From Candidatus Merdivicinus excrementipullorum (GTDB lineage: Bacteria; Bacillota; Clostridia; Oscillospirales; Ruminococcaceae): 64,000 nt of DNA. Each line of letters starts with the position of its first letter. Position 1 is the first letter of the stretch. The notes beneath the pieces are model-generated. The model saw only the letters and a program-made list of their open reading frames with translations, made no database searches and was not told the origin of the DNA. Below are positions 165-14,565 of this stretch, piece by piece. The position numbers and the translations under genes are program-made. The stretch spans positions 1 to 64,000 of the forward strand of contig DVJP01000050.1 of assembly GCA_018716725.1 (NCBI GenBank). Reading direction: 5' to 3'.

Positions 165-1664
165 TTATCCCCGGCTGAACAGGGCGTTGATTTCAGCAAA
201 ATAATCCGCGTCCAGCTCCTCCAGGTTGTTTTCGCCGATGCGGAACCGCCAGTGGTTGGCGTCGGAACCCGGGACGTTCATCCGGGTGTCGGAGCCGAAG
301 CCGCACATATCCTGGATGGAAATAATGGCCGTGTCCGCCGCCGAACGCCAGACTGCCTCGATAATGGCCCGGCAGGAGGGGCTTTTGTATCCGCCTTGGC
401 TCCAATCGCCGCCGGAGAACCCGCAGTACCGCAGAGCGAAGGCCCGTTCTTCGGGAGTTGCCTCCCATAGCCATCCCAGCAGGGTGTTATTGTCGTGGGT
501 CCCCACATAGGCTACGCATTTGTGGGGGTAGTTGTGGGGAAGATGGGAACTGTCCGCCCCCGGCTCAAAGCCGAACTGAACCACCCGCATCCCCGGCAGG
601 CCGGATTTTTCCAGGAGTTCTACAACGTCCTCCCCAAAAACGCCCAAATCCTCGGCGATAATTTTCGGCGGTTCCGGGAAGGCCTTTTTGACAGCATCAA
701 AGAACGCCATGCCCGGCCCTTTCATCCAGCCGCCCTCCTTGGCGGTTTTGGCGGTTACCGGCACGGCCCAGAAGGAGGCCAGCGCCCGGAAGTGGTCGAT
801 GCGGACGATGTGGTAAAAATCCATGGCCGCCTTCAGCCGGGACATCCACCAGGCAAAGCCGTCCTCCGCCATTTTGCCCCAGTTGTAAAGGGGGTTGCCC
901 CAGAGCTGGCCGTCCTCGGAAAAATAGTCCGGCGGCACTCCGGCCACCTTTTCCGGCTCGTAAGTATCCGGGTCCAGCAAAAACAGTTCCCGGTTGGCCC
1001 ACACGTCGCTGGAATCACGGGAAACGTAAATGGGCATATCCCCGATGACTTCGATTTCCTTTTCTTCCGCGTAGGATTTGATTTCTGCCCACTGGCGGAA
1101 AAATTCGTACTGGACAAACTTCCAAAAGGCTGTTTCCGTCTCGTATTCCCGCCGGTGTTCCAGGGCCAGTTCATATTTCGCCAATTCCTCCGGCCATTCC
1201 CACCAGGGCTTGCCGTCCTGCTCCTTTTGGATGGCCATAAACAGGGCGAAGGGGGGGAGCCAGGCTTGATTTTCGGCAAATTCCCTGATTTTTTCCGCCT
1301 GCTTCCCGTTTAACCGGGAAAAGGCCAGCCGCAGAAGGTTAAGCCTGGACGCTTTGGCGAAGGCGTAATCCGCTGTGTAGGGGGAGCCGGGATATTCGGC
1401 TTCTTCTGCTTCCTGCTTTGTCAGCAGCCCTTCCTCCGCAAGGCCCCTGGGATCAATAAACAGGTAGTTCCCCGCGAAAGCGGAAACGCTGGCGTAAGGG
1501 GAGTTGTAAGCGTCCACCATGGTAAAGGGCAGGACCTGCCATTTGTGGAATTTCATGGCAGCCGCTTTGTCCAAAAAAGCCCGGGCTTCTTTCCCGAAAA
1601 CGCCGACGCCATAAGGCGAAGGCAGGGAAGAAACGGGCAGAAGAATGCCTGCTGATCTCGTCAT
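165..1664 (-). CDS. malQ: 4-alpha-glucanotransferase (amylomaltase)
   Basis: Cytoplasmic enzyme that transfers alpha-1,4-glucan segments between malto-oligosaccharides. The 499-residue length is normal for bacterial MalQ (GH77). The three catalytic carboxylates are visible: Asp in RIDHFRAL (about residue 290), Glu in IIAEDLG (about 340) and Asp in GTHDNNTLLGW (about 390). The N-terminus SAGILLPVSSLPSPYGVG is typical of the family. ATG follows AAAGGAG at 11 nt and a good sigma-A promoter. It appears monocistronic: no other glycogen or maltose gene is adjacent, and its role in glycogen or maltodextrin use is inferred from the family. Confidence 0.96.
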   Translation of the reverse strand: MTRSAGILLPVSSLPSPYGVGVFGKEARAFLDKAAAMKFHKWQVLPFTMVDAYNSPYASVSAFAGNYLFIDPRGLAEEGLLTKQEAEEAEYPGSPYTADYAFAKASRLNLLRLAFSRLNGKQAEKIREFAENQAWLPPFALFMAIQKEQDGKPWWEWPEELAKYELALEHRREYETETAFWKFVQYEFFRQWAEIKSYAEEKEIEVIGDMPIYVSRDSSDVWANRELFLLDPDTYEPEKVAGVPPDYFSEDGQLWGNPLYNWGKMAEDGFAWWMSRLKAAMDFYHIVRIDHFRALASFWAVPVTAKTAKEGGWMKGPGMAFFDAVKKAFPEPPKIIAEDLGVFGEDVVELLEKSGLPGMRVVQFGFEPGADSSHLPHNYPHKCVAYVGTHDNNTLLGWLWEATPEERAFALRYCGFSGGDWSQGGYKSPSCRAIIEAVWRSAADTAIISIQDMCGFGSDTRMNVPGSDANHWRFRIGENNLEELDADYFAEINALFSRG

Positions 1665-1696
1665 GCTGCAAATCTCTCCTTTAAAATGATAAGAAT

Positions 1697-1725
1697 ATTA
1701 TAGCGTTTTGCTGCAAAAAAATCAA
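1697..1725 (-). promoter_or_regulatory. sigma-A promoter of malQ
   Basis: On the minus strand TTGATT is followed after 17 nt by TATAAT, about 30 nt upstream of the malQ start codon. The -10 is perfect and the -35 matches 4 of 6 bases. Confidence 0.7.
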
Positions 1726-1766
1726 GGGCCCTCCGGAAAATTAAAATAAATTCCACAACATATCGC

Positions 1767-1994
1767 CTAATCCTCAAAATCGAACAGCTGGCTCGGCTTT
1801 ACGTTCAAAGCGTCGCAGATGTCAAAGACAACCGGCAGGGAAACAGCCCCGTCCGCCGTTTCAATCCGGCTCATATGGGTCCGGCTGATGTTGACGGCCT
1901 CCGCCAGCTGGTTTTGGGAAAGCCCCCGTTTTTTGCGGAAATAGGAAATATTCAGCCCCAGCGCTTTCAGTTCTTTTTGATGCGCGTTCTTCAT
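1767..1994 (-). CDS. XRE-family helix-turn-helix regulator
   Basis: A 75-residue protein made almost entirely of a Cro/C1-type HTH. The pattern FRKKRGLSQNQLAEAVNISR with THMSRIE covers the two helices, and the tail VFDICDALNVKPSQLFDFED is the usual end of the fold. It has no sensor domain, so it probably acts as a dimer on DNA. It lies between malQ and the ABC-F gene, divergent from the latter. Its ATG follows GGTGATGATTT, a weak ribosome site. The target is unknown. Single-domain XRE proteins of this size are common in clostridial core genomes, so no mobile element is implied. Confidence 0.85.
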   Translation of the reverse strand: MKNAHQKELKALGLNISYFRKKRGLSQNQLAEAVNISRTHMSRIETADGAVSLPVVFDICDALNVKPSQLFDFED

Positions 1995-2005
1995 AAATCA
2001 TCACC

Positions 2006-2033
2006 ATTATAAGTGTACAGGGGATTTTATCAA
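2006..2033 (-). promoter_or_regulatory. promoter of the XRE regulator
   Basis: Minus strand TTGATA, 16-nt spacer, TATAAT, placed just upstream of the regulator start codon. Confidence 0.6.
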
Positions 2034-2210
2034 AAAACGACAACGCTTTCCGTTACAAATATAACTTTATATGTTATAAAATCTGTGTTATCCTGAACAC
2101 AGAGAAGGGAAAAGATCAGGAAAGCGCCTTTGCCGGAAAAAGAGAGAGAAAATAGGGTGCGCGGAAACCGAACTATTTTTGGGCAAGCCCTTCTCTTTTT
2201 GAAACAAGTA

Positions 2211-2219
2211 TGGTATAAT
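2211..2219 (+). promoter_or_regulatory. extended -10 promoter of the ABC-F gene
   Basis: TGGTATAAT gives a perfect -10 with the TG extension 43 nt before the ABC-F start codon. No good -35 is present. The same TGGTATAAT core occurs ahead of the activase gene (20821) and the Asp23 gene (37404). Confidence 0.6.
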
Positions 2220-2261
2220 AGCAGTCGCACGCTGAAATGAATCGAAAGAAAGGAATACCAT

Positions 2262-3857
2262 ATGATTACCGTTTCAAATTTGAGCCTGAGCTTTAACGGC
2301 CAGGCGCTGTTTAAGAATGTGGACTTAAAGTTCTTAGAAGGAAACTGCTACGGCGTCATCGGCGCCAACGGCGCGGGGAAGTCCACCTTTCTGCGCATCC
2401 TTTCCGGCGAATTGGAGCCGTCCAGCGGCGAAGTGGTCATGGACGCCAAAAACCGGATGTCTGTCTTAAAGCAGGACCACTTTGCATATGACGCATATAC
2501 TGTGCTGGACGCCATTATCATGGGCAACCAGCGCCTTTATGACATTATGCAGCAGAAGGACGCCCTTTATGCCAAGGAGGATTTTTCCGAGGAGGACGGG
2601 ATTTTAGCGTCGGAATTGGAGTACGAATTCTCCGAAATGGGGGGCTGGGAGGCCGAAACCGAGGCCGGGAAGCTTTTGCAGGGATTGGGTCTTTCCCTGG
2701 ATTTATTAAGCGAATCCATGGCCAGCCTGCCGGTGAAGCAGAAGGTGAAGGTTTTGCTGGCCCAGGCGCTGTTTGGCCAGCCGGACATTATCCTCTTAGA
2801 CGAGCCGACCAACCATCTGGACAACGACTCCATCACCTGGTTGGAGGATTTCCTTATGGATTATCCCGGCACAGTCATCGTGGTTTCCCACGACCGGCAC
2901 TTTTTAAACAACGTCTGCACCCATATTGTGGATGTGGACTACAACCAGATTAAGATTTATGTGGGCAACTACGACTTCTGGTACGAATCCAGCCAATTGA
3001 TGCAGCGGCTTATTAAGGAGCAGAACCGGAAGGTGGAGGAAAAAATCAAGGATTTGCAGGAATTCGTGGCCCGGTTCTCCGCCAACAAGTCCAAATCCCG
3101 CCAGGCGACTTCCCGCCGGAAGCTGCTGGAAAAGCTGGCGGTGGAGGAAATGCCCGCTTCTTCCCGGCGGTACCCCTTTGTGGCCTTTAACATGGACCGG
3201 GAGCCTGGCAAGGAAATTTTGGAAGTAAAAGACCTGACCAAAACCATCGACGGGGTCAAGGTGCTGGACCATGTGTCCTTCCGCTTAAACCGGGGGGACA
3301 AGGTGGGCTTTGTGGGGGAAAATGAAATCGCCGTCACCACCCTGTTCCAAATTTTAATGGAAGAGATGGAACCGGACGAGGGAAGCTTCAAATGGGGCGT
3401 CAGCACCAGCCGTTCCTATTTCCCCAAGGACAATTCCGCTTATTTTGACGGCTGCCGCCTGTCCATCTTGGACTGGATCCGGCAGTACGCGCCGCCGGAG
3501 GCTTTGGACAGCTTCCTCCGGGGGTTCTTAGGCAAGATGCTTTTTTCCGGGGACGATGTGCTGAAACCTGTGGAGGTGCTTTCCGGAGGCGAGAAGGTGC
3601 GGTGCATGCTGTCCCGGATGATGATGTTCGGCTCCAACGTCCTTTTGCTGGACCAGCCCACCAACCATCTGGATTTGGAATCCATTACGGCGGTGAACAA
3701 CGGCCTGACGGCATTTAAGGGCATTGTCCTTTTCGCGTCCTATGACCACGAGTTTATCCAGACGGTGGCCAACCGGATTATGGAGTTTACGCCGGAGGGG
3801 CTTATTGACCGGGTGTGTACCTACGATGAATATCTGGAATGGAAAGCGGCCCGGTAA
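2262..3857 (+). CDS. ABC-F family ATPase, YbiT/YkpA-like, with one degenerate ATP site
   Basis: A soluble twin-ATPase protein of 531 residues without membrane segments, as in ribosome-associated ABC-F factors. NBD1 has Walker A GANGAGKST (about 34-42), Walker B LLLDEPTNHLD and the switch SHDRHF. The inter-domain arm contains RFSANKSKSRQATSRRK (about 270-286), typical of the YbiT group. NBD2 carries LSGGEKVR but its Walker A reads GENEIAVTT, its Walker B LLLDQPTNHLD has Gln for the catalytic Glu, and its switch His is Tyr (ASYDHEF). The NBD1 signature is LPVKQK instead of LSGGQ. All four changes fall on the same composite ATP site. A role in translation or antibiotic protection is possible from the family but not shown. 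Confidence 0.93.
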   Translation: MITVSNLSLSFNGQALFKNVDLKFLEGNCYGVIGANGAGKSTFLRILSGELEPSSGEVVMDAKNRMSVLKQDHFAYDAYTVLDAIIMGNQRLYDIMQQKDALYAKEDFSEEDGILASELEYEFSEMGGWEAETEAGKLLQGLGLSLDLLSESMASLPVKQKVKVLLAQALFGQPDIILLDEPTNHLDNDSITWLEDFLMDYPGTVIVVSHDRHFLNNVCTHIVDVDYNQIKIYVGNYDFWYESSQLMQRLIKEQNRKVEEKIKDLQEFVARFSANKSKSRQATSRRKLLEKLAVEEMPASSRRYPFVAFNMDREPGKEILEVKDLTKTIDGVKVLDHVSFRLNRGDKVGFVGENEIAVTTLFQILMEEMEPDEGSFKWGVSTSRSYFPKDNSAYFDGCRLSILDWIRQYAPPEALDSFLRGFLGKMLFSGDDVLKPVEVLSGGEKVRCMLSRMMMFGSNVLLLDQPTNHLDLESITAVNNGLTAFKGIVLFASYDHEFIQTVANRIMEFTPEGLIDRVCTYDEYLEWKAAR

Positions 3858-3904
3858 CCGGGCGGAGAGACCCCGCTGGATTAGCCAGCATGCCTGCTTG
3901 ATGG

Positions 3905-3985
3905 CGCGGCCGCACAGTCTCGCGCCAACCGCTGGACGGCGAAAATGTTCGCCGTATGGGGAGGTTTCATTTCTGTCGTTTTTAC
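3905..3985 (+). repeat. partial mosaic repeat with exchanged palindrome
   Basis: The segment around 3920-3975 has CCGCTGGA, then a palindrome ACGGCG/CGCCGT, then ATGG..AGG.TTTCA.TTC. The same order with different palindrome interior occurs at 37058-37110. It lies between the ABC-F gene and its terminator. Confidence 0.6.
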
Positions 3986-3996
3986 AAAACCAAACG

Positions 3997-4025
3997 AAAA
4001 ACACCGGGACGTTCCGGTGTTTTTC
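3997..4025 (+). terminator. terminator after the ABC-F gene
   Basis: AAAAACACCGG, 6-nt loop, CCGGTGTTTTT. The stem is strong and A/T flanked, so it can act on both strands. Confidence 0.85.
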
Positions 4026-4038
4026 TCATCATATAAAA

Positions 4039-4069
4039 ACAGCAGCACGGCTTTTTACCGTACTGCTGT
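4039..4069. repeat. inverted repeat between convergent genes
   Basis: ACAGCAGCACGG and CCGTACTGCTGT pair with one mismatch around a 7-nt loop containing CTTTTT. A related CAGTACGG/CGGCTTTTTA arrangement lies at 30383-30400. It may be a second terminator or a small repeat. Confidence 0.5.
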
Positions 4070-4122
4070 CAGCCACGCCTGTTATGGCTTAACTGCCTAA
4101 ACGGGATTTTTATACAGGCTGC

Positions 4123-4148
4123 CCCCCGCTTTTTTGTGCGGGGGTTTT
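4123..4148 (+). terminator. GC-rich hairpin before the capD-like gene end
   Basis: CCCCCGC, loop with six T, GCGGGGG, then TTTT on the plus strand. It lies in the gap between the convergent ABC-F and dehydratase genes. Confidence 0.65.
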
Positions 4149-4149
4149 C

Positions 4150-5139
4150 CTATTTTCTTTGATAATCCGGCACAGCCTCTTTGAGGAGGGAAAAAATTTC
4201 CTCCCGGTTTCCGGCCTGCGCCGCGTCTTGGAACCGGCGCAGCAGGTTTTCCAGCTCTTCCGGCCGGAACGGGTCGGTTTTGACCCGCAGGATTTTCCCC
4301 ATCCGGACAGCTGTTTGTTTCTCTTCCGGGGTAAGCAGCCTTTCTTCCAGCCTTTCGCCGGGGCGGAGGCCGGTGAAGCGAATGGGGACGTCCGTCCTTC
4401 CCGATTCCCGGACGAGCTTTTCCGCCAAAGCCAGAATAGAAACCGGCTCTCCCATATCCAGCACAAACAGGCCGCCGTTTTCCCCAAGCCGGGCCGCTTC
4501 CAAAACCAGCCCCGCCGCTTCCGGAATGCTCATAAAATAACGGGTCATGCGAGGGTCCGTGACTGTTACAGGGCCGCCTTCCGCAATCTGCCGCCGGAAC
4601 AGGGGGAGCACAGACCCGGCGGAATCCACAACATTGCCGAACCGAACCGCCGCCTTAATGGTCCTGCCGGGGAGGAGCATCCGTTCCGTCACCCGTTTGG
4701 AGGCCCCCATGACGCTTTGCGGCTCCACCGCCTTGTCTGTGGAAATCAGCACCAGTCGTTCTACATCGGCCTGTTCCGCTGCTTGGATCACATTCCAGGT
4801 ACCCAGAATATTATTCTTCACCGCTTCTTCGGGAAACCGCTCCATAAAGGGGACATGCTTGTGGGCTGCCGCATGGAGGATGATGTCCGGCCGGAAGGAA
4901 GAAACAAGCTGCTCTATCCGGCCCCTGTCCCGGATAGAGGCGATGACAGCCTGGAACGGGACGTCCGGCCCGTATCGCTCCCACAGCTCCTGTTGTACGG
5001 CAAAAAGGCCGTTTTCGCTGACGTCTGCGGCGGCCAAGGCGGCTGGTTTTTGGGCGGCGGCCTGGCGGCAAAGTTCGGAGCCGATGGATCCTCCGCCGCC
5101 GGTAATGAGTACCCGTTTTCCTTGCAGGAATGGCTGCAT
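4150..5139 (-). CDS. nucleotide-sugar 4,6-dehydratase/epimerase, soluble CapD/FlaA1 type
   Basis: Extended short-chain dehydrogenase of 329 residues. The NAD-binding loop GGGGSIGSELCRQ lies at residues 14-26. HAAAHKHVPFME and STDKAVEPQSVMGASKR follow, the latter with the catalytic Met and Lys (MxxxK) that replace YxxxK in the UDP-GlcNAc 4,6-dehydratase group. ITDPRMTRYFM-type sequence (TVTDPRMTRYFMSIPEA) is the usual substrate-binding signature. The membrane-spanning N-terminal half of long CapD/PglF proteins is absent, so it resembles the short soluble form. No glycosyltransferase is adjacent, so the polymer served is unknown. It has its own promoter and RBS GAGGGG. Confidence 0.85.
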   Translation of the reverse strand: MQPFLQGKRVLITGGGGSIGSELCRQAAAQKPAALAAADVSENGLFAVQQELWERYGPDVPFQAVIASIRDRGRIEQLVSSFRPDIILHAAAHKHVPFMERFPEEAVKNNILGTWNVIQAAEQADVERLVLISTDKAVEPQSVMGASKRVTERMLLPGRTIKAAVRFGNVVDSAGSVLPLFRRQIAEGGPVTVTDPRMTRYFMSIPEAAGLVLEAARLGENGGLFVLDMGEPVSILALAEKLVRESGRTDVPIRFTGLRPGERLEERLLTPEEKQTAVRMGKILRVKTDPFRPEELENLLRRFQDAAQAGNREEIFSLLKEAVPDYQRK

Positions 5140-5170
5140 AATACCCCTCTTTTACACATGGTCTGGTGTT

Positions 5171-5199
5171 ATTGTAGCATATCCAGCGAGAAATTACAA
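5171..5199 (-). promoter_or_regulatory. promoter of the dehydratase gene
   Basis: Minus strand TTGTAA, 17-nt spacer, TACAAT, about 30 nt before the start codon. Confidence 0.6.
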
Positions 5200-5202
5200 C
5201 AA

Positions 5203-5232
5203 AAAAGATGCCGCACAGGAGACCTGTGCGGC
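5203..5232 (-). terminator. terminator of the isomerase gene at 5340
   Basis: Minus strand GCCGCACAGG, 3-nt loop, CCTGTGCGGC, then ATCTTTTTT: a textbook intrinsic terminator located just upstream of the next promoter. Confidence 0.85.
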
Positions 5233-5339
5233 TAAATCAATGGAAAAGATCAGGGAAAAGGATAGGAGATTTGCCTACTATATCGTAACACAAGGGAATC
5301 AAAAATTTTGTCGGATATAGTCCCCGGCAAAAAAATTTT

Positions 5340-11016: not shown

Positions 11017-11709
11017 TTACTCTTCTTCCGGCGTTTCCCGCAGGCCCATCATATCCTCAACCGGCAGGGAGAATAAAAGCCCCCGGCATTCGGTGGTAAG
11101 GCCGGCCACCTTATTGATAGCCCGCATAATCTGCATTTTCTTTTCCCGGGGCGTTAAAATGGCCACAATCTCTTTTTCCGGCTGCAAGGTAAACCCAACC
11201 AGGTTTTCCACATCCTCCAATCCGACCCGGCGGCCGTGCAGAGCCGTACCGCCCCGCGCTCCCTGCGCCCGGGCAGCGTCCATGACAATATCCAGGCTGT
11301 CCCGGTTGACTACAACCAGGATCAAATCATACTTTGTAACAGCCTCCACAGTCTTTTCCTCCTCTACTTTGGTTTCCGCCCCCTTGCAGAGTACCTGGGG
11401 GATTTGCCCGCTGACCGCTGAAAGGGTCAGGCTGAAGATAATGCCCCGGCCCGGGCTGGACAGATGGAACCGTTCGTCTACCAATTTCATCAGCTCCCGC
11501 ACCCGGGAAGCGGGCGTCAGGGTAAAAACCACGTCCTTTTCGGTCTCCGACAGCCCGAAATAATCGAGAATCTGGGAATTGGCTGTGCCAAGCCCCATGC
11601 AGAGATAATCAAAATGCAGCCCGTTGGACCGGTAAATATCCACGGCGGCGCTTCCTTTGCCCCGGTCCACAATGGTTACCAGCAGCTTGATCTTATCATC
11701 CTTGAGCAT
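11017..11709 (-). CDS. P-II-like regulatory protein paired with DUF1538 membrane protein
   Basis: A 230-residue soluble protein starting MLKDDKIKLLVTIVDRGKG; GGAGG lies 9 nt before this ATG. It looks like two ferredoxin-like modules in tandem: the first begins IKLLVTIVDRGKGSAAVDIY, the second YDLILVVVNRDSLDIVMDAA, each followed by a Gly-rich loop (GLGTAN; GARGGTALHGRR) and a late strand (IIFSLTLSA; IVAILTPREKK). GGTALHGRR resembles the T-loop region of GlnB/P-II proteins. The start overlaps the end of the DUF1538 gene by 14 nt, so translation is coupled and a direct regulator-transporter pairing is likely. The ligand is not known. Confidence 0.75.
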   Translation of the reverse strand: MLKDDKIKLLVTIVDRGKGSAAVDIYRSNGLHFDYLCMGLGTANSQILDYFGLSETEKDVVFTLTPASRVRELMKLVDERFHLSSPGRGIIFSLTLSAVSGQIPQVLCKGAETKVEEEKTVEAVTKYDLILVVVNRDSLDIVMDAARAQGARGGTALHGRRVGLEDVENLVGFTLQPEKEIVAILTPREKKMQIMRAINKVAGLTTECRGLLFSLPVEDMMGLRETPEEE

Positions 11710-13243
11710 CTGCGGCAGCCTCCTCTGTGTAATCAATAATATCGTCGGTGAGCATCCGTTCTTCTTCCTCGGTGACGTCCTTGGTCCGGGCCAGCTTGCG
11801 CTGGTAGAACAGGCCCAGGATCTGAATGGTAATCAAAGGGGTCATGGCTACCATGGCCACTACGCCGAAAGCGTCCATGAGCATGTCGCCCCCCAGCATT
11901 TGGCAGGCCCCCATGGCAAAGGGAAGCAGGAAGGTGGCCGTCATGGGGCCGGAGGCCACGCCGCCGGAGTCAAAGGCAATGGCGGTAAAAATCTTAGGCA
12001 CCCGGAAGGTCAGGGCCAGGGCCAGCAGGTAGCCCGGCACTAGGAACCAGTAAATGGGGATGTGCAGCCAGACCCGCATCATGGCAATGCCGATGGAAAC
12101 GGCAACGCCAATGGACAAAGACAGCCCGATGGCCTTCTGCGGAATGGCGCCGCTGGTGACCTCCTCCACCTGCCGGTTCAAAACATGGACAGCCGGTTCG
12201 GCGGCCACAATGAAGTAACCCACAACCATCCCCAAAGGGATCAGCAGCCAGCTGGGGGCGTTTTCCGCCATGGTCTGCCCCAGGAAATATCCAACCGGCA
12301 TAAAGCCCACATTGGCGCCGGTGAGAAAGAGGACCAGACCGATAAAGGTGTACCCGATCCCCACGCCGATTTTAATTAAGGAACGGCGGGCCAGCCGCAG
12401 GGCGATAAACTGGAAGACCAGGAAAAACAGGACAATGGGCAGCAGGCCAAAGAACACCTCGGACAGATATTCCGGCAGGCCGTGCAAAAATTCCCGGCCC
12501 GCATCCTGGGAAGTTTCCACTACGGGGATCTGGAAGGGGGTGTAAGCCACCTCGGTGGAATTATAAAGCAGCCCCAGGATCATAACTGCCAGGATAGGCC
12601 CTACGCTGCAAATTGCCACCACGCCGAAATTGTCGTCGTCGTTGCCTTTAATACTGGCAAGGCCCGCCCCCAAGGCCATAATAAAGGGGACGGTGATGGG
12701 GCCGGTGGTGACGCCGCCTGAATCGAAGGCCACCGCCAGGAATTCATTGGGGACAAAGATGGAAAGCAGGAATACCAGTCCGTACAGCGCAATCAGCGCG
12801 TATTGCAGGGAAAACCCCAGCCGCGTCCGCAGCATGGCCAGCACCAGGAAAATCCCCACCCCAACGGCCACAGTCAGGATGATGGTCAGGTCCGGCACCG
12901 CCGGAACCTGACGCGCCAGCACCTGCAAATCCGGTTCCGCGATGGTTACAGTGAAGCCAATGAGGAAAAAGATGAGCACTGCTATTATAATGCTTTTCGA
13001 GCTGCCCAGCTTGTAGCCCATCTGCTCCCCCATAGGCATCATAGCCACGTCCGCGCCAAGGGAGAAAAAGCCCATGCCCAAAATCAGAAGGGCGGCTCCC
13101 AGCAGGAAAAGCACCAGGGTGCCGATTGGCATGGGGGCCAGGGTGAAGGAAAGCAGCAGGACGATGACGGTGATGGGGAGGACCGAGGAAATGGCCTCCA
13201 TGATTTTTTCTTTTAGTTTTTTCCGCATAGATTCACCTCTCAA
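11696..13243 (-). CDS. DUF1538 membrane protein with internal duplication
   Basis: A polytopic protein of 515 residues with about 12 hydrophobic segments. The two halves are homologous. Each contains IAEP followed by VLxRQV (about residues 98-111 and 338-351), a long hydrophobic stretch, and the motif AFDSGGVxxGPxT (about 172-185 and 415-428). This inverted-repeat-like architecture with helix-breaking SGG/GP motifs is typical of secondary transporters. I assign DUF1538 from memory of the family pattern. The transported substrate is unknown. The downstream P-II-like gene overlaps it, as GlnK does with AmtB in ammonium uptake, suggesting regulation by direct contact. Confidence 0.85.
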   Translation of the reverse strand: MRGESMRKKLKEKIMEAISSVLPITVIVLLLSFTLAPMPIGTLVLFLLGAALLILGMGFFSLGADVAMMPMGEQMGYKLGSSKSIIIAVLIFFLIGFTVTIAEPDLQVLARQVPAVPDLTIILTVAVGVGIFLVLAMLRTRLGFSLQYALIALYGLVFLLSIFVPNEFLAVAFDSGGVTTGPITVPFIMALGAGLASIKGNDDDNFGVVAICSVGPILAVMILGLLYNSTEVAYTPFQIPVVETSQDAGREFLHGLPEYLSEVFFGLLPIVLFFLVFQFIALRLARRSLIKIGVGIGYTFIGLVLFLTGANVGFMPVGYFLGQTMAENAPSWLLIPLGMVVGYFIVAAEPAVHVLNRQVEEVTSGAIPQKAIGLSLSIGVAVSIGIAMMRVWLHIPIYWFLVPGYLLALALTFRVPKIFTAIAFDSGGVASGPMTATFLLPFAMGACQMLGGDMLMDAFGVVAMVAMTPLITIQILGLFYQRKLARTKDVTEEEERMLTDDIIDYTEEAAADAQG

Positions 13244-13285: not shown

Positions 13286-13315
13286 ATTATAACATAAAAA
13301 GAGAAAGCCGCGCAA
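13286..13315 (-). promoter_or_regulatory. putative promoter of the DUF1538 operon
   Basis: Minus strand TTGCGC, 18-nt spacer, TATAAT. The -35 lies inside the terminator stem of the preceding CofE-like gene, so the two signals overlap. Confidence 0.45.
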
Positions 13316-13331
13316 TATTTTCCTGCGCGGC
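13307..13331 (-). terminator. terminator of the CofE-like gene
   Basis: Minus strand GCCGCGCA, 9-nt loop, TGCGCGGC then TTTCTCTTTTT. Confidence 0.8.
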
Positions 13332-13362
13332 TGTTTTTAAATGTTTTATAAACTTCCGGGGA

Positions 13363-14565
13363 TTAGCCTTTGACGTAGTTGTCGAAATAACCCTGGATGA
13401 GGATAATGGGGGTGCCCTTGTCGCCGGAGCCGGAGGTCAGGTCGCAGAGGGAGCCGATGAGGTCGGTCAAGCGCCGGGGAGTGGTGCCTTGGGTGGCCAT
13501 AGTGCCCTTCAGGCTCTCGTTTTTGGCGTCTTTCTCCGCAATGGCCTTGGAAATAGCTTCCTTCAAAGCTTCGCCGCTTAAGTCGGCGAAATCGTTGTCC
13601 GCCAGATATTTGAGCTTCAGCTCATTGGGCTGGCCAATAAGGCCGTCGGTGTGGCCGGGGGAAACCACCGGGTCCGCCAGCTCCCAGATTTTTCCAACGG
13701 GGTCTTTGAAAGCGCCGTCGCCGTAAACCAGCACTTCCAGGCATTTGCCGGTGCGCTCTAAGAACATTTTCTGCACCTTTTCCGCGAAAGCCTTGCAGTC
13801 CCGGGGGAAGAGCTTCACCGTGGACTCGGTGGCCTTGTTGGAGCCAAGCAGGCCGTAATCCGCGTTGTAGCCGCTGCCGTTTACCGGGGCGGTCATGATT
13901 TCGTCCAAGCCCAGGACGGTGTTGGCGCCGGCAGCCTGAAGGCGGCGTTTGGTCAGGGCGCGGGTGTGGATGTCGCAGTGGAGGACGTCCTTGGTGTAGT
14001 TTAAGATGGCCCGGCAGTTGTTGGCGAAAATCACTTCCGCCTCAGCGCCTTCTTCCTCAATCAGGGACTTGTAGTATTCCACATAGTCCACGCCGGTGAA
14101 GGTGTGCTTCTGATAGCCGAACAGCTCCCGGTATTTGGCCTCGTCCAGGATGTCGGTCCAGGGATTGACGCCCTTTTCATCCAGCTCGTCCTCGGTGACC
14201 AGGTGGTTGCCCACCTCGTCGGAAGGGTAGCTGAGCATCAGGGTGATCTTCTTAGCGCCCTTGGCGATGCCCCGCAGGCAGATGGCGAAGCGGTTCCGGG
14301 ACAGGATGGGGAAAATCACGCCGATGTGGCCGCCGGGGAATTTTGCCCGGACGTCTGCGGCAATGTCCTCGGTTGTGGCATAGTTGCCCTGGGCGCGGGC
14401 TACCACAGCTTCGGTAATGCCCACGACATCCCGGTCGTGAAGGGGGAACCCCTCCGATTCAGCGGCAGCGATGACGCTGTCCACAGCGATTTTGGCCATA
14501 TCGTCCCCTTCCCGGATAATGGGGGCACGGATGCCGCGGGAAACAGTTCCTACCAATCTTTCCAT
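13363..14565 (-). CDS. coenzyme F420-0:L-glutamate ligase-like (CofE family) protein
   Basis: A 400-residue protein whose N-terminal half follows the CofE/FbiB ligase pattern: VSRGIRAPIIREGDDM, then HDRDVVGITEAVVARAQG (about 42-60). It also contains GGHIGVIFPILSRNRFAICL and LVYGDGAFKDPVGKIWE. It is much longer than archaeal CofE (about 250 residues). I see no F420 biosynthesis gene nearby, and most Clostridia are not known to make F420, so the real substrate of this amide ligase is uncertain. It is flanked by its own promoter and terminator. Confidence 0.8.
   Translation of the reverse strand: MERLVGTVSRGIRAPIIREGDDMAKIAVDSVIAAAESEGFPLHDRDVVGITEAVVARAQGNYATTEDIAADVRAKFPGGHIGVIFPILSRNRFAICLRGIAKGAKKITLMLSYPSDEVGNHLVTEDELDEKGVNPWTDILDEAKYRELFGYQKHTFTGVDYVEYYKSLIEEEGAEAEVIFANNCRAILNYTKDVLHCDIHTRALTKRRLQAAGANTVLGLDEIMTAPVNGSGYNADYGLLGSNKATESTVKLFPRDCKAFAEKVQKMFLERTGKCLEVLVYGDGAFKDPVGKIWELADPVVSPGHTDGLIGQPNELKLKYLADNDFADLSGEALKEAISKAIAEKDAKNESLKGTMATQGTTPRRLTDLIGSLCDLTSGSGDKGTPIILIQGYFDNYVKG

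Follow-up and report, generated by a model that had tools for sequence, protein, structure and literature searches.

Here, we describe a two-gene unit in a 64,000-nucleotide stretch of the genome of Candidatus Merdivicinus excrementipullorum (assembly GCA_018716725.1, contig DVJP01000050.1, positions 1 to 64,000; this whole stretch is hereafter the window), in which the gene for a membrane transporter of the DUF1538 family overlaps a gene for a small protein of two fused PII-like modules. We find that the two genes accompany each other across genomes, that the number of PII-like modules follows the gene form of the transporter, and that the two halves of the transporter carry opposite charge bias. 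We regard it as fairly probable that the unit encodes an antiporter of the DUF1538 (UmpAB) family, exchanging monovalent cations for protons, together with a dedicated PII-like protein that would regulate it. Pairs of PII proteins with transporters are already known, as is UmpAB; what is new is the pairing of DUF1538 with a PII-like partner.

A DUF1538 transporter gene overlaps a double PII-like gene

Both genes lie on the minus strand of the window, as do all of its other features named below. The transporter gene (positions 11,696 to 13,228; 510 residues from the ATG at 13,228) matches PF07556 at 455.6 bits against a cut-off of 22.6, and it overlaps by 14 bases (11,696 to 11,709) the PII-like gene (11,017 to 11,709; 230 residues from the ATG at 11,709). 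The open reading frames span 11,696 to 13,243 and 11,017 to 11,736, and the true genes are probably slightly shorter because TTG starts at 13,243 (a possible alternative start of the transporter) and 11,736 precede ATG codons with good ribosome-binding sites. These likely sites are AGAGGTG (13,234 to 13,240), 5 bases ahead of the transporter ATG, and GAGGAGG (11,719 to 11,725), which lies within the transporter gene and 9 bases ahead of the PII-like ATG. The initial annotation, a reading of the sequence without database searches, had placed both genes correctly to within their start codons.

The internal duplication that the same reading had claimed for the membrane protein is borne out by two PF07556 matches, one to a first half (12,566 to 13,174; 225 bits) and one to a second half (11,807 to 12,436; 243 bits). 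Two motifs recur between the halves: IAEPDLQVLARQV (12,905 to 12,943) pairs with AAEPAVHVLNRQV (12,167 to 12,205), and AFDSGGVTTGPIT (12,692 to 12,730) pairs with AFDSGGVASGPMT (11,939 to 11,977). They hold, in this order, E103, E349, D174 and D425 (numbered from the TTG start), which are unchanged in 14/14 rows of our DUF1538 alignment (A2). An AlphaFold model of the transporter is helical and fairly confident (predicted local distance difference test, pLDDT, 78; predicted template modeling score, pTM, 0.76); in it, E103 and E349 sit where helices break, D174 and D425 lie immediately before such breaks, and a membrane helix of the first half is interrupted within AFDSGGVTTGPIT, as is a helix of the second half within AFDSGGVASGPMT. 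Hydropathy indicates about seven hydrophobic segments per DUF1538 unit. Among profile matches of the membrane protein up to an E-value of 1, PF07556 stands alone, and the Amt profile is absent. Comparison of the model with the PDB yielded no Foldseek match at E up to 1e-3 and no VIA match at Z ≥ 5 (best 4.8, to CLC-ec1 over 120 residues), and a fold unmatched in the PDB is not in itself evidence of a new fold.

The small protein had been proposed to consist of two fused PII-like or ferredoxin-like modules, and both profile and structure comparisons agree. PF00543 matches its second module alone, at 26 bits against a cut-off of 25, a narrow pass; the same profile matches 14/14 members of the corresponding alignment (A1) at E up to 1 and nine of ten other single-module or split proteins at 33–50 bits. 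Profiles built from the N- and C-terminal modules match each other by hhalign at 99.8% (E 1.6e-27), and the C-module profile matches canonical PII at 95% (E 3e-8). The AlphaFold model (m013ab40d58e6), of low to medium confidence (pLDDT 61, pTM 0.63), shows the order beta-alpha-beta-beta-alpha-beta twice, with both T-loop regions at low confidence; a predicted structure lacking ferredoxin-like folds, which the initial annotation had named as grounds for refutation, is thus not what the model gives. In it, module 1 (11,413 to 11,691), the diverged one, reads strand-helix-strand, short T-loop, strand-helix-strand, and module 2 (11,047 to 11,331) is nearer to canonical PII.

The top 31 rows of a VIA search with this model are PII entries (Z 11.0–10.0, root mean square deviation 2.0–5.1, 74–96 residues). 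Twenty-seven are PII by title and four are titled just TT1020, which we take to be a PII protein. The best match is PII entry 1hwu (Z 11.0, root mean square deviation 2.3 over 77 residues), aligned with model residues 135–226 in module 2; GlnK of Escherichia coli bound to AmtB (2ns1) is among the top rows at Z 10.1, and CutA and SbtB come next at Z 10.0, tied with PII rows. A sequence search of the double PII-like protein against the PDB gave no meaningful match. Judged by their sequences, the modules are members of the PII superfamily that are not of the nitrogen-sensing type.

The two genes travel together

The pairing recurs well beyond the window. Among 245 genomes of one order, 111 carry DUF1538 and 110 match a double-PII profile; 112 carry either and 109 carry both (Fisher p about 1e-66, with shared ancestry ignored). 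DUF1538 occurs without a PII-like hit in two genomes (G158 and G171) and a PII-like pair without DUF1538 in one (G058); the DUF1538 hit of G171 is incomplete, its second half covering 58 of 211 positions, probably cut by a contig end. Wherever the places of both genes are listed, they lie on the same contig and strand within 2 kb (87/87 genomes).

A survey of the phylum found DUF1538 in 101 of 299 sampled genomes, and the pairing ties this little-studied transporter family to a PII-like partner that is probably dedicated to it. We fetched one locus each from 79 of these 101 genomes, among the matches listed, a sample in which weaker matches are under-represented; in 77/79 the PII-like gene lies directly downstream on the same strand, the two exceptions being G461, with an altered DUF1538, and G326, whose locus is cut by a contig end. 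In 72,556 plasmid records, tblastn searches with the window's DUF1538 protein and with a Methylocystis PII-like protein returned the same nine, from Clostridia and Alphaproteobacteria. Five of the seven plasmid regions fetched are annotated: Chelativorans and Methylocystis show DUF1538, DUF1538, P-II, and Paraclostridium, Peptoclostridium and Vescimonas show a fused DUF1538 followed by P-II. The cross-phylum evidence consists of three Alphaproteobacteria plasmid records from two genera. These records already annotate the neighbor of DUF1538 as a 'P-II family nitrogen regulator'. Co-occurrence in other genomes, on which the initial annotation had made its proposal depend, is therefore seen at the level of order, phylum and plasmid.

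PII module number follows the form of the transporter

DUF1538 exists in three gene forms, lone, paired and fused, and the number of PII modules beside it differs among them. All 73 fused loci have two modules, in one gene or two, and all nine lone loci have one; among paired loci, 10 have one module and 20 have two. Over these 112 loci the association gives Fisher p values of 2e-8 and 1e-6, both inflated by shared ancestry. Of 120 loci entered, eight were left out (L137, L146 and L154, which hold two systems each, and L056, L175, L193, L194 and L200); L083 and L084 were never entered.

Such matched numbers would also be expected if the PII-like protein had no sensing role and were a constitutive subunit or assembly factor that stabilizes or orients an antiparallel transporter from the cytoplasmic side. 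The strict linkage and gene overlap agree with this alternative, as does the loss of almost all canonical effector residues described below. Against it, the best-conserved parts of the modules are those that line the nucleotide cleft in canonical PII, which suggests a ligand, and the DUF1538 pair UmpAB needed nothing beyond its two genes to work in E. coli (as reported in PMC5484666). We consider a purely structural role unlikely.

In a tree of the modules, which has few columns and long branches, the N modules of tandem proteins (relatives of the window's module 1) and the first genes of split pairs form one clade (31 rows, 99%) once two mislabeled loci are set aside, suggesting a single duplication of the PII-like regulator. 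The module sets used for the profile comparison, this tree and the residue counts below were cleared of identical rows and of any locus repeating another one fetched; the window's own modules, L187 and L192 are therefore missing from them, and three loci are mislabeled: L055 is entered as single though it is tandem, and L146 and L154, with two complete systems each, are entered as split.

The halves of DUF1538 carry opposite charge bias

Opposite bias of positive charge distinguishes the two DUF1538 units in every fused and paired system counted. We mapped DUF1538 units onto the first half of the window protein and counted lysine and arginine in the loops of each side, using identical columns throughout and loop borders taken from the window protein's model. 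The first half of the window transporter has 10 such residues on side A and 1 on side B, and the second half has 1 on side A and 11 on side B. Across fused proteins, the bias of N halves is positive in 78/78 (+3 to +14) and that of C halves negative in 78/78 (−2 to −11). Gene pairs repeat the pattern, with +2 to +9 for the first gene (33/33) and −2 to −10 for the second (33/33), and nine lone genes fall between −2 and +2. Shifting the borders by up to 4 residues keeps the signs of fused and paired units, except for one of the 78 fused C halves at −4. The lone set derives from 12 rows labeled single, of which three were dropped (L200 and L193, cut by contig ends, and L114, a pair whose partner was lost to the length filter); seven of the nine genomes hold one DUF1538 unit in the whole genome, and two (G284 and G325) hold three.

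This charge pattern across lone, paired and fused forms is a new observation of the present analysis. The pattern puts the N-terminal side of the first half in the cytoplasm, as judged from charge, and the second half is probably inverted relative to it. Opposite bias of this kind is the mark of antiparallel proteins, as described for the DUF606 family and others (PMC3962082), and the lone genes would be candidate dual-topology homodimers. The two halves might instead be parallel, the charge pattern reflecting something else, such as the PII-like protein binding different loops; topology here does draw on counts of charged residues, on hydropathy and on the helices assigned in a single AlphaFold model. 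A parallel arrangement is nevertheless very unlikely in our view, given that identical columns flip sign in all fused and paired proteins and come near zero in 9/9 lone ones, and given that the seven or so hydrophobic segments per unit match the prediction for UmpA and UmpB (PMC5484666).

A tree of 83 units from a quick search separates the lone genes (98% support in the Shimodaira–Hasegawa-like approximate likelihood ratio test, SH-aLRT), group A (99%) and group B (99%). Group A unites the first genes of pairs with fused N halves, group B the second genes with fused C halves, and fused N halves emerge a single time within A, as do fused C halves within B. On this sampled tree, the sequences thus place a single origin of the fusion in the paired form. 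Lone genes attach where groups A and B meet on this unrooted tree, and the lone form may have come first.

Canonical PII effector residues are almost all replaced

In canonical PII proteins, K90, R101 and R103 contact the ATP phosphates, Q39 is a 2-oxoglutarate residue, and tyrosine 51 is the residue uridylylated in GlnB and GlnK. We compared 160 module rows with 32 canonical PII rows. K90, R101 and R103 are all present in 32/32 canonical rows and are found in 0, 3 and 15 of the 160 module rows; Q39 is likewise in 32/32 canonical rows and in 4/160 module rows. No module row has tyrosine at column 51 (26/32 canonical rows do), and a tyrosine stands elsewhere in the T-loop in 27/55 tandem N modules. 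Other positions persist: the lysine of column 58 is found in 150/160 rows, though beside an alignment gap, G35 in 145/160, G89 in 154/160, and T29 in every row of the tandem C, split second and single classes. In these three classes conservation is highest at positions 27–36, whereas tandem N modules and split first ones are best conserved around the B-loop and strand 4; in PII, both parts line the nucleotide cleft.

With the canonical ligand residues nearly all missing, the pair is unlikely to copy the nitrogen mechanism, and the absence of K90, R101 and Q39 speaks against sensing of ATP and 2-oxoglutarate. The annotation of the plasmid records and the Pfam P-II match could be taken as signs of an ordinary PII nitrogen sensor placed beside DUF1538 for other reasons. 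To that idea we give next to no weight: the residue counts and the tyrosine-free column 51 contradict it, DUF1538 is also present in 109/110 genomes of the order that carry the PII-like gene, and the window's genome (2.78 Mb in 85 contigs, with a single DUF1538 gene) has no Amt/AmtB match (PF00909) anywhere in a whole-genome search. A P-II search of the whole genome gave no match at E 0.001, the window's double gene, near the cut-off, being likewise unlisted.

Proposed mechanism

A physical regulator fits these observations best because the PII-like gene is a neighbor of the transporter gene, overlaps it, matches it in copy number, and encodes a conserved cleft and a T-loop. By analogy, the protein probably acts on DUF1538 as GlnK does on AmtB and SbtB on SbtA. 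We propose that its modules would mediate its assembly at the cytoplasmic face of DUF1538, where its short T-loops would slow or lock ion exchange, and that a small effector binding in the cleft between modules would release it. Because K90, R101, R103 and Q39 are almost all replaced, this effector would not be read as ATP and 2-oxoglutarate are in GlnK; candidates are an adenine nucleotide held in a different binding mode (AMP in SbtB is an example), cyclic di-AMP, or a direct effect of an ion or pH.

Cation/proton exchange by the window transporter is suggested by its kinship with UmpAB. Some other cation or an organic ion might be moved in the window's lineage under the same PII control, since the protein does not reach the UmpA and UmpB equivalogs (NF041627, 167.5 against 490 bits; NF041628, 152.1 against 500 bits; 30–34% of the cut-offs), and the measured relative is halophilic while the closest loci are in gut Clostridia such as Candidatus Merdivicinus. 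The invariant E103/E349 and D174/D425, in or near helix breaks, would in contrast fit a cation site, and a published table of pH-adaptation features lists DUF1538 (PMC13255231). Exchange of something other than Na+ or K+ and H+ seems to us rather improbable, if less so than a purely structural role of the PII-like protein.

Several points weigh against a PII-regulated antiparallel cation/proton antiporter. The N-module profile resembles canonical PII weakly (14%, E 0.002), one split first module (L057:4427-4783) has no Pfam P-II match, and the T-loop, mostly 14–15 residues against 20 in GlnK (columns 37–58), is five to six shorter. The near-zero bias of lone genes changes with where the loop borders are set (−1 to +6 for a shift of −4, and −3 to +2 for one of +4). 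The scores far under the UmpA and UmpB cut-offs mean that the ion moved by the window protein may differ. In E. coli, the two DUF1538 genes of UmpAB are reported to suffice for activity (PMC5484666), making a PII-like protein dispensable there. The loci of G158 and G461 have DUF1538 without a PII-like gene, with the AFDSGG motif region altered in both, and G058 keeps the PII-like pair without DUF1538. Finally, our literature search found no binding, transport or nucleotide experiment on a DUF1538/PII-like pair.

With these points in mind, we still favor the antiporter with a dedicated PII-like regulator, and put forward only tentatively, as an idea somewhat more doubtful than not, a fuller model. 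In it, a PII-superfamily regulator would control an antiparallel cation/proton antiporter and not a trimer; the transporter would have passed from lone gene to pair to fused inverted repeat with its PII partner duplicated alongside; and, in the end state, two different PII modules in one chain would read the differing cytoplasmic faces of the inverted halves and respond to a ligand other than ATP and 2-oxoglutarate. If PII control of the antiporter is real, PII-type regulation extends towards Na+, K+ and pH homeostasis. The series of lone, paired and fused transporters with one or two PII modules also offers a natural test of how inverted-repeat transporters evolve and of the stoichiometry of PII control.

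Gene neighborhood and unusual loci

Directly upstream of the pair in the window is a gene resembling F420-0:gamma-glutamyl ligase (13,363 to 14,565; PF01996, 191 bits). A terminator-like hairpin of 10 pairs with a T-rich tail (13,306 to 13,332), recognized by consensus match, in a region with 8 terminator-like sites against a mean of 5.7 in shuffled sequence, sets the pair apart from this gene, and the DUF1538 and PII-like genes may therefore form their own transcription unit. RNA elements were considered as a hint to the ligand and set aside: the window region gave just two matches, far under threshold, and 34 further loci gave five single above-threshold RNAs (RNase P, two cyclic di-GMP families, molybdenum and guanidine), none of them common to the pair.

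Two fused DUF1538 proteins have variant motifs, AFDGSGATTGD in L083 (G158, 2433-3989) and AFDSGGATTGS in L175 (G461, 2837-4336); perhaps they represent a second, unregulated DUF1538 subfamily. Locus L056 (G058, 4618-5324) holds two adjoining PII-like genes with no DUF1538 match in a genome judged 92% complete, so that either the transporter was lost or the PII-like genes serve another target. At three loci (L137, L146 and L154), two complete DUF1538 and PII-like systems adjoin.

Two apparent fusions of transporter and PII-like protein were rejected. A 109-residue frame in L084 (G186, 1737-2066) joins the start of DUF1538 to the end of a PII-like module; we read it as a deletion remnant and not a working fusion, yet its genome is counted among the 109 with both genes. 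The 752-residue frame of L055 (G126, 1603-3861), which covers the PII-like hit, proved to be a shadow frame: it lies in G+C-rich DNA and overlaps a separate DUF1538 gene, a trap for automatic fusion searches. DUF1538 is also present in seven phage-labeled records (MT837261, MT835770, MT835548, MT839021 and three Listeria phage records), which are perhaps bacterial contigs or carried-over host DNA.

Comparison with known systems

Across literature on DUF1538, UmpAB and PII-like transporters or antiporters, covered mostly at abstract level and with many subscription papers outside it, we found no paper linking DUF1538 with PII. The closest measured relative is UmpAB of Halomonas zhaodongensis, a DUF1538 pair reported to act as a Na+(Li+,K+)/H+ antiporter that requires both subunits, each predicted with about seven segments (PMC5484666); the words PII, P-II and topology are absent from the main text of that paper. 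It shares with the window protein the Pfam family and two homologous DUF1538 units of about seven segments, and differs as a heterodimer from the window's single fused chain, whose scores fall well short of the cut-offs for the UmpA and UmpB equivalogs. The initial annotation had thought a new transport system gated by a P-II-like protein plausible; the transporter is not wholly unknown, UmpAB having been measured.

It had also seen the logic of AmtB-GlnK repeated with unrelated partners. Strict linkage to a transporter of an unrelated family agrees with that claim, while the small protein turns out to be a PII homologue, which leaves the transporter as the one unrelated partner. As described in PMC10710835, GlnK acts from the cytoplasmic side to block AmtB. 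In both systems the gene of a PII-superfamily protein accompanies that of a membrane transporter, and cytoplasmic block is the model we propose for the window pair. Besides the unrelated transporter family, the window system differs in that its PII-like protein is doubled and has a shorter T-loop, the canonical ATP and 2-oxoglutarate residues and Y51 are absent or rare in its modules, and no link to nitrogen is seen. SbtB, for its part, is a single module. It is described as a PII-like inhibitor of the bicarbonate transporter SbtA that responds to AMP (PMC10710835), and SbtA-SbtB resembles the window pair as a secondary transporter matched with a PII-like protein, although SbtA is described there as a trimer and DUF1538 is apparently an antiparallel two-unit protein.

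For the architecture of the transporter, the nearest parallel is the DUF606 family, whose antiparallel proteins come in single, paired and fused forms (Lolkema et al. 2008, described in PMC3962082). DUF1538 shows the same three gene forms, a fusion that followed divergence of the pair, and a charge bias that would mark orientation. It differs from DUF606 as a separate family with about seven segments per unit, and in that nearly every form of DUF1538 travels with a PII-like protein.

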